A DNA stretch of 64,000 bases. Origin: Herbinix hemicellulosilytica. GTDB lineage: Bacteria; Bacillota; Clostridia; Lachnospirales; Lachnospiraceae. Under the pieces are notes generated by a model. That model saw nothing but the letters and a program-made list of their open reading frames with translations. It searched no databases and was not told where the DNA came from. Positions 2,778 through 7,050 of this stretch are shown in pieces (positions within the stretch are counted from its first letter, which is position 1; every line of letters starts with the position of its first letter). Made by a program: the position numbers and the translations under genes. The stretch lies in the NCBI RefSeq assembly GCF_002904165.1, contig NZ_CVTD020000008.1:62001-126000 (forward strand). The letters are read 5' to 3'.

Positions 2778-3377
2778 TTGTATTATAACCAGGATAATAA
2801 AAAAACCGGGCAGGGACCGATAAGATATGAGCAGGTCTTTCCGGGATTTCCTCCGGGATCAGGACCCGGGCAAAGACCTGGGACAGGAACAGGACAGCAA
2901 CCGGGAATGGGACCCGGACAAAGACCCGGGACAGGAACAGGGCAGCAGCCGGGACCGGGACCCGGACAAAGGCCTGGAACCGGAACAGGGCAGCAGCCGG
3001 GAATGGGACCTGGGCAAAGGCCGCCGGGAATGGGACCGGGATTTGGGCCAGGACCGGTAAGACCCGGTGTTCAACCACCTTCATCTCCTCCCGATTTTAC
3101 ACCCCAACTGCCCCGTGAAGAACAGCAATTGCTTTCAGAGCCTTCTGGTTTTCGTGGACCTTTTGGCAGCAGGATAATAGATTTTCGCAGGCGCCCCAGG
3201 GATTTTGGAAGATGCTTAAATCGTTTTACCTATATATGGATGGTTAACGGCAATAATTTTTGGTTTTATCCGGTATCAATAGGCAGAAACAGCATTGAAG
3301 GATTCAGGTGGCGCAGAAACAGATGGGATTATGACAGGTTAAATATCAACAGAATTCTGTTCCATCTATGTTTCTAA
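2778..3377 (+). CDS. collagen-like Gly/Pro repeat protein with conserved aromatic C-terminal domain
   Basis: Translation probably begins at TTG 2778 with AAAGAGG at 2763-2769. The 199-residue product has a short head, then tandem 16-residue units of the form GPGQRPGTGTGQQPG (residues about 28-95), then a compact C-terminal domain. That domain carries the pattern CLNRFTYIWMVNGNNFWFYP and GFRWRRNRW, resembling a small domain found at the end of surface or spore-associated proteins of clostridia. No signal peptide is seen. The repeats are GC-rich and unlike the AT-rich surroundings, and repeat number probably varies between strains. A spore-coat or surface role is a guess. Confidence 0.6.
   Translation: MYYNQDNKKTGQGPIRYEQVFPGFPPGSGPGQRPGTGTGQQPGMGPGQRPGTGTGQQPGPGPGQRPGTGTGQQPGMGPGQRPPGMGPGFGPGPVRPGVQPPSSPPDFTPQLPREEQQLLSEPSGFRGPFGSRIIDFRRRPRDFGRCLNRFTYIWMVNGNNFWFYPVSIGRNSIEGFRWRRNRWDYDRLNINRILFHLCF
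2859..3066 (+). repeat. 48-bp tandem repeats encoding GPGQRPGTGTGQQPG units
   Basis: Three full near-identical 48-bp units plus partial units lie in frame inside the collagen-like gene. The GC-rich, purine-biased block is a likely site of slippage and copy-number change. Confidence 0.8.
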
Positions 3378-3791: not shown

Positions 3792-4748
3792 ATGTACAGA
3801 GATATGGAAGTTCGAAATAATAATATCGGAACGGCTATTCAGTATTTCCGCGAATCTTTTCATATCTCACAAAGTAAGTTATGCAAGGGCATTTGCTCTG
3901 TATCCACCCTGTCCAGAATAGAAGCAGGGGAAAGAGACGTGGATGCTCTTATTTTAGAAACGCTCTTGGAACGGTTAAGGAAGGTTACGCATCATTTTGA
4001 ACTGATACTTACAGATTTTGACTATAAGGCCTATATATGCCGGGAAGAAATAAAAAAGAAGATTAAAGATAAAGATATAGAAAAGGCAAGAAAACTAATT
4101 CATGAGTACGACAAGCTGACTATAGGCAAGGGTTCACCTCATAGGCAGTTTATCATGGTAAACCGGGCATATCTTAATGAATTGGAAGGTAAAGAGCCCA
4201 AAACCACCATTGATTTACTGATGGAAGCCATAACCTGTACGGTTCCTGATTTTAACACCAATGAAATTAGAGATTACTATTTAAGTGTAACGGAATTAAA
4301 TATTATTCTTGAAATTTTGCAGAGAATGATAGCCCTGGGGATGGATGAAAAGGCTGAAAGAATTCTTAATCAAATAATCGGCTACCTCTATTGGCACGGA
4401 CAGATGGCCTATGACCGAAAAATTTATCTTAAGGTAGCCGTTATAGCAGGTAAATTTTTTATGAAACATAATAAAATTGATAAGGCCTTGGAGATATGTG
4501 ATATTACCCTTAAGATGTACAAGGGCAGCAATAAGATGGATTATATTGGTGAACTACTTTATATAAAAGCACAATTATTGGAAAGAAAATTTATCGGAAG
4601 TTCAGAGTGGGAACCTGGTAAGAAAACTGATTGTCTGAAATTATATTTGCAGGCATATCATATTTTTGATTTTTGCGAAGAAAAATCGGAGGCTGAAAGT
4701 ATACGCAAGCATTTGCGGGAGGTGTACCAATGGGAAGATATCGGTTAG
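3792..4748 (+). CDS. XRE-family regulator with TPR-like domain, RRNPP type
   Basis: The 318-residue protein has an N-terminal XRE helix-turn-helix (about residues 10-68: IGTAIQYFRESFHISQSKLCKG followed by CSVSTLSRIEAGERDVD). A long all-helical C-terminal region resembles the tetratricopeptide repeats of PlcR/Rgg/ComR peptide-pheromone receptors. Start ATG 3792 follows AGGAG at 3781-3785; the TTG at 3777 overlaps that site. The next regulator starts inside this gene's last 19 bases, so the two are translationally coupled. A secreted-peptide gene lies convergently after the pair, which supports a pheromone-receptor role. That role is inference; peptide contacts cannot be assigned by eye. Confidence 0.8.
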   Translation: MYRDMEVRNNNIGTAIQYFRESFHISQSKLCKGICSVSTLSRIEAGERDVDALILETLLERLRKVTHHFELILTDFDYKAYICREEIKKKIKDKDIEKARKLIHEYDKLTIGKGSPHRQFIMVNRAYLNELEGKEPKTTIDLLMEAITCTVPDFNTNEIRDYYLSVTELNIILEILQRMIALGMDEKAERILNQIIGYLYWHGQMAYDRKIYLKVAVIAGKFFMKHNKIDKALEICDITLKMYKGSNKMDYIGELLYIKAQLLERKFIGSSEWEPGKKTDCLKLYLQAYHIFDFCEEKSEAESIRKHLREVYQWEDIG

Positions 4749-5665
4749 GAGATATTATACGGATGACAAGAAAGTCTTTATCAATAACCCAGGAACAATT
4801 AAGTGAAGATATCTGTTCTGTGGAGACCTTATCGCGTATTGAAACCGGCAAGCAAAATCCCAGCCGGGATGTATACGAGCTTTTGATGGAGCGGATGGGA
4901 AGAGTAAGAAATCGGGCTTATTCCATACTTTCTGTTTCCGATTTTAAGGTTTTGGAAAAGATGCAGTTATTTGAAGAAGCAATTTTGTCTTATGATTATC
5001 ACAGGGCTGAATATATATTGGAAGAAATAATGAAAAAACCCGGAAACACTAATTTGGATAAACAGTTTATGATACGGGCTAAAAGCTTAATTGATTACAG
5101 AATGGGCCGTATAAGCACCGATGAGTTTTTGGAAGAGCTTATAAAAGCAATCCGTATAACCATACCTAAATTTGGGGATATTTCATTGGTTAATTGGCCC
5201 CTAACCTATAATGAATCAAATATAATCCTCAATATATCTACAGCTTATGCCGAAAAGCAGGATTATCAAAAGGGGATTAATATTCTGGAAGAAGCGTACA
5301 GCGCTATCAAGAAGAGTTATATGGATGAGGAGTTTAGAATTACTATGCAGGTTATTATCCTTAATAACCTGTCTAAATGGTATGGCCTGCTGGGAGACCA
5401 TCAGAAGGCAATTGATGTTATAAAACAGGGGCTTAAATTATGTAAGGAGTATAAAATAAGCAGTGTACTCCCTAATCTATTATATAATTATGTCTGGAAC
5501 ATGGAGCGGTTAATAGATAAGGGAGTACTGTCAAAGGAGAACAAGAGAGAATGTATTAACTTGTTAAAGCAAGCGTATTATATATCATGTGCTGTGCAAT
5601 ATCCCTATTTGGAGCAATTTATAAGGAAGCATCTACAAGTTCAATATAATATAAATTTATTATAA
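4730..5665 (+). CDS. second XRE-family regulator with TPR-like domain, RRNPP type
   Basis: This 311-residue paralogue of the preceding gene has an HTH at about residues 4-60 (RLGDIIRMTRKSLSITQEQLSE, then CSVETLSRIETGKQNPS). Helical repeats follow, including QKGINILEEAYSAIKKSYMDEE and HQKAIDVIKQGLKLCKEY. The ribosome site GGGAGGTG lies just before ATG 4730, inside the end of the first regulator. The gene stops at 5665, one base before the stop of the convergent peptide gene, with no terminator in between. Its mRNA may therefore run antisense through the peptide gene to the hairpin at 5949-6005. Two adjacent receptors could divide activator and anti-activator roles, which is speculation. Confidence 0.8.
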   Translation: MGRYRLGDIIRMTRKSLSITQEQLSEDICSVETLSRIETGKQNPSRDVYELLMERMGRVRNRAYSILSVSDFKVLEKMQLFEEAILSYDYHRAEYILEEIMKKPGNTNLDKQFMIRAKSLIDYRMGRISTDEFLEELIKAIRITIPKFGDISLVNWPLTYNESNIILNISTAYAEKQDYQKGINILEEAYSAIKKSYMDEEFRITMQVIILNNLSKWYGLLGDHQKAIDVIKQGLKLCKEYKISSVLPNLLYNYVWNMERLIDKGVLSKENKRECINLLKQAYYISCAVQYPYLEQFIRKHLQVQYNINLL

Positions 5666-5666
5666 A

Positions 5667-5822
5667 TTATAACGGGAATGCAACAGAATCTGCAGGAGGT
5701 AAATTACTGCAAATTGTTATTTCCTGAGTATCTGCTTTTGCATTACCTGTTACAACAGGAACAACTAAGCCTAAAGCCATAAGCAAGCCACTGACAATAA
5801 GTAATTTTTTAAATTTCTTCAT
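5667..5822 (-). CDS. secreted signalling-peptide precursor (RRNPP pheromone candidate)
   Basis: This 51-residue gene lies on the minus strand and was missed by length cut-offs. AGGAGG sits 7 bases before ATG at 5820-5822 (complement). The product starts MKKFKKLL, has a hydrophobic core (IVSGLLMALGLVVPVV) and a GNAKA signal-peptidase-like site, and leaves a mature tail of about 21 residues ending in ADSVAFPL. Size and layout match PapR/Phr/Shp-type precursors that feed XRE-TPR receptors, and two such receptors end one base away on the other strand. The short C-terminal segment is the best candidate for the active peptide after further proteolysis. A bacteriocin-like or ordinary small exported peptide remains possible. 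Confidence 0.75.
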   Translation of the reverse strand: MKKFKKLLIVSGLLMALGLVVPVVTGNAKADTQEITICSNLPPADSVAFPL

Positions 5823-5866
5823 ATAAATTCCTCCTTTTAAAAAGTTGTTGGTTTATGGGGATGCTT

Positions 5867-5906
5867 ATTATATAGCCGGCTATATCGGGTTGTATTTTGT
5901 ACAACC
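5867..5906 (-). promoter_or_regulatory. peptide-gene promoter with two palindromes
   Basis: On the minus strand a TATAAT -10 (5867-5872) lacks a good -35. In its place is the inverted repeat GGTTGTA-N5-TACAACC (5888-5906). A second perfect 16-bp palindrome centred on GCCGGC (5870-5885) overlaps the -10. A dyad replacing the -35 box is the arrangement expected for an activator-dependent promoter such as those of PlcR/ComR-type receptors. That the neighbouring regulators bind here is inference. Confidence 0.55.
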
Positions 5907-5948
5907 TCTATAAGCAATTTTATTATAATATGTATATATATAAAATAA

Positions 5949-6005
5949 CATGGCGTATCTGGAAAATTTTTTATGAAATTTTTCCAAATACGACATGGTT
6001 TTTTT
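5949..6005 (+). terminator. intrinsic terminator between the peptide gene and the EAL gene
   Basis: An imperfect stem of about 18 bp (CATGGCGTATCTGG... with ...CCAAATACGACATG) is followed by seven T residues at 5999-6005. It is oriented for plus-strand transcription. The nearest upstream plus-strand gene ends at 5665, so the likely transcript is regulator read-through antisense to the peptide gene. Confidence 0.7.
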
Positions 6006-6011
6006 AAGCCC

Positions 6012-6035
6012 TGTCCACTATTATATAATTGGACA
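6012..6035 (+). promoter_or_regulatory. EAL-gene -10 inside a TGTCCA/TGGACA inverted repeat
   Basis: TATAAT at 6024-6029 is bracketed by TGTCCA (6012-6017) and TGGACA (6030-6035). The -35 position is only a T-run, so an activator or repressor acting at the repeat is plausible. Confidence 0.4.
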
Positions 6036-6080: not shown

Positions 6081-6950
6081 ATGGAGAAAACAACCAAGTC
6101 AGAAAGATACCATGATTATATGAATGTCTTATCGGTATCCGGGTTATATAAAAAGAGGTATAAGAACGTAAGCTATCGCCGATCAGATATTTTGAAAAAA
6201 ATTATAAAGGCTATAAAGAATGATGAGTTTACGCTGTTCTATCAGCCGGAATATGACCTGGAAACGGGAAAAGTAATTGGTGTAGAGGCTTTAGTAAGAT
6301 GGATTTCTCCTGACAGTAATACCATAATACCTCCTGATGTTTTTATTCCGGTAGCTGAAAAAACCGGGCTGATATTTGAACTTGATCGAATGGTTATCCG
6401 AAAAGCATTAAATCAAAAAATGATATGGGAGAGTAACGGCTTAGGACATATAGAACTGTCAATAAATCTTTCAAGCAAAACTATTGAAAGTGAAGAGAAT
6501 TTCAGATGTATTGAAGAAATAATAAAATCAATCAATGTTGATTATAATACGGTTATATTTGAGATTACTGAAACAATGGTTATCACAAATATAGATTTGA
6601 CTATGGAGCGCTTAAACAGGCTCAGAGAATACGGTATCAGGTTTGCGCTGGATGATTTTGGTACAGGTTACTCATCCTTAATCCATTTGGTAAAATTGCC
6701 AATTGATATTATAAAGATAGATAAAACATTTATAAAATCAATTCCGAATGGCAACGAAGAAACTGCAATTACAAAAAACATTCTTGCGATGGCGCATGAT
6801 TTAAATTTTAAGGTTGTTGCAGAAGGAATTGAAACTGAGAAGCAATTAGAATATCTGCAAATCAACTCCTGTGAAGGAGGACAAGGTTTCTTGCTTTGTG
6901 TTCCACTGCCTTCTGATAAAGTTGTTGATATTATCAGGGGATCAGCATAA
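6081..6950 (+). CDS. EAL-domain cyclic-di-GMP phosphodiesterase
   Basis: The 289-residue protein is an EAL domain (about residues 38-285) with a short basic N-terminal extension and no sensory domain or membrane helix. The expected catalytic features are present: EALVRW, the NLS Asn, FEITET, the DDFGTGYSS loop, IKIDKTF and AEGIET. The Gln of the final motif is kept as GGQGFLL, followed by CVPLP where YxFSxP is usual. It should therefore linearise c-di-GMP to pGpG in the cytosol. The gene is transcribed away from the secreted-peptide gene and may be under the same regulators, which is inference from position only. Start ATG 6081 has a weak GAAAGAG site. Confidence 0.9.
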   Translation: MEKTTKSERYHDYMNVLSVSGLYKKRYKNVSYRRSDILKKIIKAIKNDEFTLFYQPEYDLETGKVIGVEALVRWISPDSNTIIPPDVFIPVAEKTGLIFELDRMVIRKALNQKMIWESNGLGHIELSINLSSKTIESEENFRCIEEIIKSINVDYNTVIFEITETMVITNIDLTMERLNRLREYGIRFALDDFGTGYSSLIHLVKLPIDIIKIDKTFIKSIPNGNEETAITKNILAMAHDLNFKVVAEGIETEKQLEYLQINSCEGGQGFLLCVPLPSDKVVDIIRGSA

Positions 6951-6982: not shown

Positions 6983-7050
6983 TGCCACCTTGTTGGCAAC
7001 AGGTATATGGGGATAATGGAAGGCTCGTCCCGCAAGGGATGGGCCTTTCC
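6983..7050 (+). terminator. hairpins after the EAL gene
   Basis: TTGCCA/TGGCAA forms a small hairpin near 6985-7000. A strong 14-bp stem with a GCAA loop follows (GGAAGGCTCGTCCC with GGGATGGGCCTTTCC, 7018-7050). The T-tract is short, so termination may be partial. Confidence 0.6.

Follow-up and report, generated by a model that had tools for sequence, protein, structure and literature searches.

The window (the whole stretch of 64,000 nucleotides that was analysed) holds a locus that very probably serves cell-to-cell signalling: a pair of regulators would sense a small peptide that the cell secretes. We are confident, if short of certain, that it is an RRNPP-type (PlcR/PapR-like) peptide quorum-sensing module, whose two regulators would act as a heterodimer and activate from an asymmetric box. 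The RRNPP-type reading had been proposed in the original prediction, and the convergence of peptide and regulator genes in relatives, the predicted PlcR-like nature of regulator 2 and the conserved peptide core all point the same way.

The regulator pair and its convergent propeptide gene

Regulator 1 (positions 3792-4748, plus strand, 318 aa) consists of an XRE HTH and a TPR-like domain. Regulator 2 (4730-5665, plus strand, 311 aa), with a PlcR-like XRE HTH and a TPR domain, starts inside regulator 1, and the two genes overlap by 19 nt (4730-4748, plus strand). Facing them, a minus-strand gene at 5667-5822 encodes 51 aa, MKKFKKLLIVSGLLMALGLVVPVVTGNAKADTQEITICSNLPPADSVAFPL, with a Sec-type signal sequence; its AGGAGG ribosome-binding site (5830-5835, minus strand) lies 7 nt 5' of the ATG, and one base separates its stop codon from that of regulator 2. 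Translation and coordinates bear out the original prediction of this peptide gene beside two tandem XRE-TPR regulators. Of the features that define RRNPP(A) systems, the TPR receptor with an XRE HTH was found in regulator 2 and more weakly in regulator 1, and the adjacent short propeptide gene with an export signal is present. No other copies of this regulator type were found in the window's genome.

Regulator 2 was found in 21 of 34 same-genus genomes at E 1e-30 or better, among which G423 holds only a 35%-identical relative. Regulator 1 stands in tandem with it at all 16 distinct intact genus loci (L033-L035 duplicate L046, L047 and L053, and distinct loci were counted once), and the gene overlap is 19 nt in 14 of these and 28 nt in the other two. 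All genus loci with enough downstream sequence carry a convergent propeptide gene, and the signal sequence and C-terminal core are kept in every such relative, as expected if peptide and regulators form a conserved unit; at L051 and L052 a contig end leaves only the repeat-rich 3' part of the gene visible. When a fixed filter was applied (small ORF, RBS, signal-like leader judged by hydropathy, opposite strand, -60 to +150 nt from the 3' end), such an ORF was convergent with 14 of 15 regulator-2 genes, one gene missed by the name pattern being counted as regulator 2, compared with none of the 173 other genes on those stretches (Fisher p 3e-20). Furthermore, the propeptide leader is under purifying selection (pN/pS 0.33, pooled over 10 pairs). 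In G403 (L054/L096), the reading frame of regulator 2 is broken in two, with the propeptide and the dyad described below intact, which represents either a pseudogene or an assembly error. A repeat protein rich in Gly and Pro, whose C-terminal domain (NRFTYIW.NGN.FWFYPVS) is conserved, was also observed (window 2778-3377, L033 120-497, L081 5155-5640 and other genus loci), often upstream of regulator 1 and after a GntR-ABC transporter set.

Judging from its sequence, the 51-aa product is a propeptide. Across 16 loci its core reads [S/N]D-x-P-x-x-[D/E], with the Pro invariant (16/16) and the Asp kept in 13 of 16. The core is tandemly repeated in seven relatives (L033, L040, L044, L045, L051, L052 and L055), several of which have 5-10 copies per propeptide at repeat lengths of 9, 12 or 18-19 residues. 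Thus, L040 carries six copies of CSDAPAVDTILV, L044 five copies of ASDFPPHDTIGI, the 227-aa propeptide of L045 ten ASDCPPIESAS-type units, and L033 of Mobilitalea sibirica NDLPPTESY-type units, and in L052 at least seven ASDLPPVLS units follow one another every 9 residues; simple forms are CSDLPFVD (L048), QSDLPYAD (L035) and NSDLPAIDW (L034). In the window, these repeats and the conservation in relatives mark SNLPPADS (codons at 5685-5708, minus strand) as the putative pheromone core. The original prediction had placed the signal in the C-terminal tail. That part of the tail which contains SNLPPADS is indeed conserved; however, the extreme C-terminus, VAFPL, varies. Since the conserved core is internal and the last residues vary, the mature peptide of the window may stop short of the C-terminus. 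The Pfam and NCBIfam search of the peptide gave nothing credible, and none of ten propeptides matched the Pfam PapR family even at E 10, the likeness to PapR being confined to the core motif. A mirror-tree comparison of peptide-core and TPR-domain distances gave no correlation (r 0.05-0.08), and thus no signal of co-evolution at this depth.

Tandem and fused receptors

When the regulator 2 profile was searched against the PDB, the best solved structure was PlcR (2qfc, E 1.1e-19), matched at positions 5-286, nearly the full length. The AF2 model of regulator 2 (pLDDT 88.9) matched the PlcR-PapR7-DNA complex 3u3w with a VIA Z of 23.5, compared with 17.9 for the next family, and its TPR part fitted apo PlcR at 2.9 A over 217 residues. 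The large rmsd of the model to 3u3w probably arises because the HTH is positioned differently relative to the TPR domain. Regulator 2 thus models as a PlcR-like TPR superhelix with an XRE HTH, the kind of TPR domain expected of a peptide receptor. Telling against the module, the profile alignment of the window's regulator 2 has a Leu where PlcR has an Asn on helix 5 that contacts the peptide. Regulator 1, the more divergent of the two, matched HTH_3 at E 1.5e-6 and RNPP_C at E 3e-4, which is under the RNPP_C cut-off, and with its AF2 model (pLDDT 82) PlcR and Rgg2 came on top in Foldseek, whereas by VIA PlcR did not stand out from other TPR proteins, so that its nearness to PlcR is weak. The HTH of regulator 1 also matched Rgg/MutR at E about 1e-3, and for regulator 2 both profile and fold favour PlcR.

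The architecture extends beyond the genus. At 30 more distant XRE-TPR loci (L005-L032, L036 and L058), a convergent propeptide was present in 16, and a same-strand propeptide just downstream in none. In other Lachnospiraceae, one fused receptor of about 580-680 aa occurs in 12 loci; the first half scored as regulator 1 and the second as regulator 2 in 12/12, the second half of the L010 receptor being nearly tied between the two. A two-receptor architecture, tandem or fused, was found in 14 of the 16 loci with a convergent peptide compared with 4 of the other 14 (p 0.002), and L014 and L058 have a convergent peptide with a single receptor. In the class-wide search outside Lachnospiraceae, single PlcR-like receptors were seen, with no convincing convergent peptide in the few loci seen.

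The original prediction had suggested that two receptors with one peptide might be an activator/antagonist pair. The same quorum-sensing module could indeed contain receptors that act separately on the box, one activating and the other repressing or antagonising. A precedent is Rgg2/Rgg3, a known opposing pair with common SHP pheromones; moreover, regulators 1 and 2 are just 27% identical, and their HTH recognition regions are similar, alike enough to compete for one site. Nevertheless, this arrangement is hard to reconcile with the single-chain fusions, which number at least 12 among Lachnospiraceae loci and all have the order 1-2, with a constant overlap that implies matched dosage, and with a box that is asymmetric, and we regard it as unlikely. 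The two receptors look like obligate partners instead, given the 19- or 28-nt overlap, the 1-2 fusions and the non-palindromic box. Since the natural fusion, the constant overlap and the box together favour a heterodimer, the presence of two receptors for one peptide would be explained without an antagonist.

Box, dyad and putative regulon

The propeptide gene is divergent to a gene for an EAL-domain protein, a c-di-GMP phosphodiesterase and likely target (6081-6950, plus strand; Pfam EAL E 1.5e-68), and the space between these two genes contains TTTTCCAAATACGNCATG twice, each copy facing outward. The putative regulator box on the propeptide side is TTTTCCAGATACGCCATG (5949-5966, minus strand), and the propeptide promoter has its -10 box, TATAAT (5922-5927, minus strand), 21 nt past it. 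The putative box on the EAL side is TTTTCCAAATACGACATG (5980-5997, plus strand), followed at 21 nt by a possible -10 box, TATTAT (6019-6024, plus strand), with a second candidate, TATAAT, 5 nt beyond. In relatives the dyad CATGNCGTATTTGGAAAA...TTTTCCAAATACGNCATG was found upstream of the propeptide in every locus with that DNA, degraded in L050; each arm reads TTTTCCAAATACGNCATG outward, and the reverse reading is CATGNCG-N4-TGGAA. Among the 34 genus genomes scanned, the exact-core dyad occurs once per genome in 13, all with regulator 2 (p 2e-4), and in none of those lacking regulator 2; viral contigs gave no dyad. An EAL or GGDEF-EAL gene is divergent to the dyad in 11 of 14 loci with flank, and at L035, L049 and L050, which have no EAL neighbour, the dyad remains with the propeptide.

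The distance between arm and -10 is rigid. On the propeptide side the -10 lies exactly 21 nt past the arm in 16/16 loci (TATAAT in 15, TATGAT in one), and on the EAL side a -10 (at least 5/6) lies at 19-22 nt in 75% of loci, compared with 10% in shuffled sequence. The box may replace the -35, as at class-II activator sites, so that no -35 would be needed. At the distant loci L005, L008, L022, L025 and L031, CATG stands exactly 21 nt 5' of a -10-like hexamer (CTATG at L058), and the distant-locus boxes match TTTTCCANNNNCGNCATG to varying degree.

Instead of an operator, the inverted repeat that separates the peptide gene from the EAL gene could be an RNA hairpin, a terminator or leader. Its folding is strong for either strand (z -3.7 and -4.7), some outer pairs covary, double changes being present in 5 pairs, and a T-run often follows on the plus strand. 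However, 12 of 22 pairs never vary, which argues that the sequence itself is conserved, partnerless single arms recur upstream of other genes, and a rigid 21-nt spacing to the -10 would be meaningless for a hairpin; Rfam returned sub-threshold chance matches only for the repeat. We therefore hold a pure hairpin to be improbable, and the invariant pairs together with the covarying outer pairs make a hairpin role in addition to the operator role possible. A perfect palindrome, ATATAGCCGGCTATAT, at 5868-5883 in the propeptide 5' region was also considered as an operator and rejected, since, in contrast to the conserved 18-bp box, it was lacking in those relatives' sequences that were read. The motif ATGGGGAT was observed on the plus strand at window 5855-5862, in the propeptide 5' region (the mRNA thus has ATCCCCAT), and again at window 7007-7014, 3' of the EAL gene beside a hairpin, as well as 5' of a terminator-like hairpin at about 4340-4400 in L034 and 4440-4500 in L035; it could be a small RNA or a leader element of the same transcripts.

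The regulon was scanned by pattern searches. Outside the dyad, about 13 exact single arms were found in the genus, compared with 1 for the reversed pattern; 10 were intergenic, and matches inside genes (L147, L148 and L155) were discarded. By the rule used for the EAL side (at least 5/6, at 19-22 nt), a -10 accompanies 80% of the single intergenic box sites, compared with 12% in shuffled sequence. Composite promoters (box, N21, TATAAT, at most 3 mismatches) numbered about 60, compared with 8 for the reversed-pattern control; those with at most 2 mismatches were found only in genomes with regulator 2, and the N20 version of the pattern was weaker. The box precedes genes for a GH5 cellulase with CBM65 (G397) and GH11 xylanases (G425 and G427) in relatives, and also a CcpM radical-SAM maturase (above the NCBIfam cut-off), a C39 peptide exporter, LytTR regulators, an ECF-type sigma factor and several secreted proteins. 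In G427 (L290), G422 (L287), G409 (L277) and G411 (L279) the box stands before CcpM maturase, C39 exporter and LytTR regulator genes, hinting that peptide-product clusters may be under the same control as the propeptide. In the window's genome, only the two dyad arms were above background, and looser matches (at most 3 mismatches) numbered 32 compared with 20 in the control; as these are not far apart, no wider regulon is claimed there.

That some box-preceded genes belong to RiPP and export systems would also suit a small protein that is itself a secreted product, bacteriocin-like or a surface peptide, with regulators that respond to something else, and the Sec leader and the repeats are equally suited to a multicopy product. 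Nevertheless, the locus has no gene for modification, immunity or export, the core that is repeated resembles PapR, being short and centred on a proline, and the peptide gene has a promoter architecture in common with the putative targets. Moreover, convergent peptides recur next to this receptor type with unrelated C-termini. A secreted product of this kind is thus very improbable.

Returning to the heterodimeric quorum-sensing module, we infer the following course. The propeptide would leave the cell through Sec and be cut outside to a short pheromone around SNLPPADS, which would be taken up again and bind in the TPR groove of regulator 2, of regulator 1 or of both. Translational coupling would yield the regulators as a pair, and in their heterodimer each HTH would read one half of the box: CATGNC, like the PlcR half TATGNA, and TTGGAA. 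The loaded complex on CATGNCG-N4-TGGAA, standing in for the -35 at 21 nt 5' of the -10, would activate transcription, and the back-to-back boxes would fire both the propeptide gene, as positive feedback, and the divergent EAL gene. Single boxes in relatives would bring secreted polysaccharidases, along with other public goods, into the regulon.

Relation to known systems and significance

Compared with known systems, regulator 2 is nearest to PlcR by sequence and fold, in PlcR-PapR of the Bacillus cereus group and PlcRa-PapRa. The peptides share the Sec leader and a D-L-P-type core, SDLPFVD and SDLPYAD here being comparable to ADLPFEF, the PapR7 of Bacillus (PMC4701985); the conserved Pro and acidic residue recall Pro4, Glu6 and Phe7, the critical residues of PapR7 (PMC6568020), and CSDAP.. 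here resembles PapRa7, CSIPYEY (PMC3519770). The box is likewise similar to the 16-bp PlcR box, TATGnAnnnnTnCATA (PMC2464732), in its 4-bp spacer, ATGN half and 6-4-6 geometry, and secreted proteins belong to the PlcR regulon and to the putative one here. Rather than the palindromic TATGNAN4TNCATA, however, TTTTCCAAATACGNCATG has one ATGN half only, and the two receptors, convergent peptide gene and multicopy propeptides also differ from PlcR-PapR. In Rgg group III of streptococci, the peptide gene lies downstream of the receptor gene and is convergent (PMC3679016), as here 3' of the receptor; unlike Rgg/SHP, the present system has a regulator 2 nearer PlcR, a Sec-type leader, a proline core and tandem or fused receptors. 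Phr propeptides of Rap-Phr contain several pheromone copies, up to 8 reported (PMC11343458), which is similar to the multicopy propeptides here; however, Rap has no DNA-binding domain, and the repeats here go with PlcR-like receptors.

Qsr/Qsp of Clostridium acetobutylicum likewise pairs clostridial XRE-TPR receptors with secreted, mostly unannotated peptides, with a peptide ORF that comes after a single regulator gene and an active core of AEPTWGW; unlike the present loci, the eight Qsr/Qsp systems have no tandem or fused receptor reported in the part of that account drawn on here (PMC7376267). The same paper lists CA_C0957 and CA_C0958 as RRNPP-type regulators; their locus tags are consecutive, and neither has a peptide assigned to it.

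RRNPP signalling, the convergent orientation (PMC3679016) and multicopy pheromones (PMC11343458) are already known. In the literature searched, outside which most subscription papers lie, we found neither the tandem or fused double receptor, nor the fixed-spacing asymmetric box, nor the polysaccharidase-linked regulon, and no description of a peptide quorum-sensing receptor of this kind in Lachnospiraceae. RRNPP_detector limits the receptor to 500 aa and the propeptide to 100 aa (PMC10075063); since the fused receptors exceed 500 aa and some propeptides 100 aa, they would be missed by design. We lean, by a narrow balance, towards an overlooked large RRNPP branch in Lachnospiraceae, with an obligate heterodimer or a covalent double receptor of about 600 aa, an asymmetric operator at a fixed -10 distance and a convergent, often multicopy propeptide, in which cellulases and xylanases of lignocellulose degraders would be quorum-controlled. 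A double receptor on an asymmetric box, if true, would represent a new design of peptide sensor. The box offers a sequence handle on the regulon, and quorum control of plant-fibre-degrading enzymes in some anaerobes becomes directly testable.
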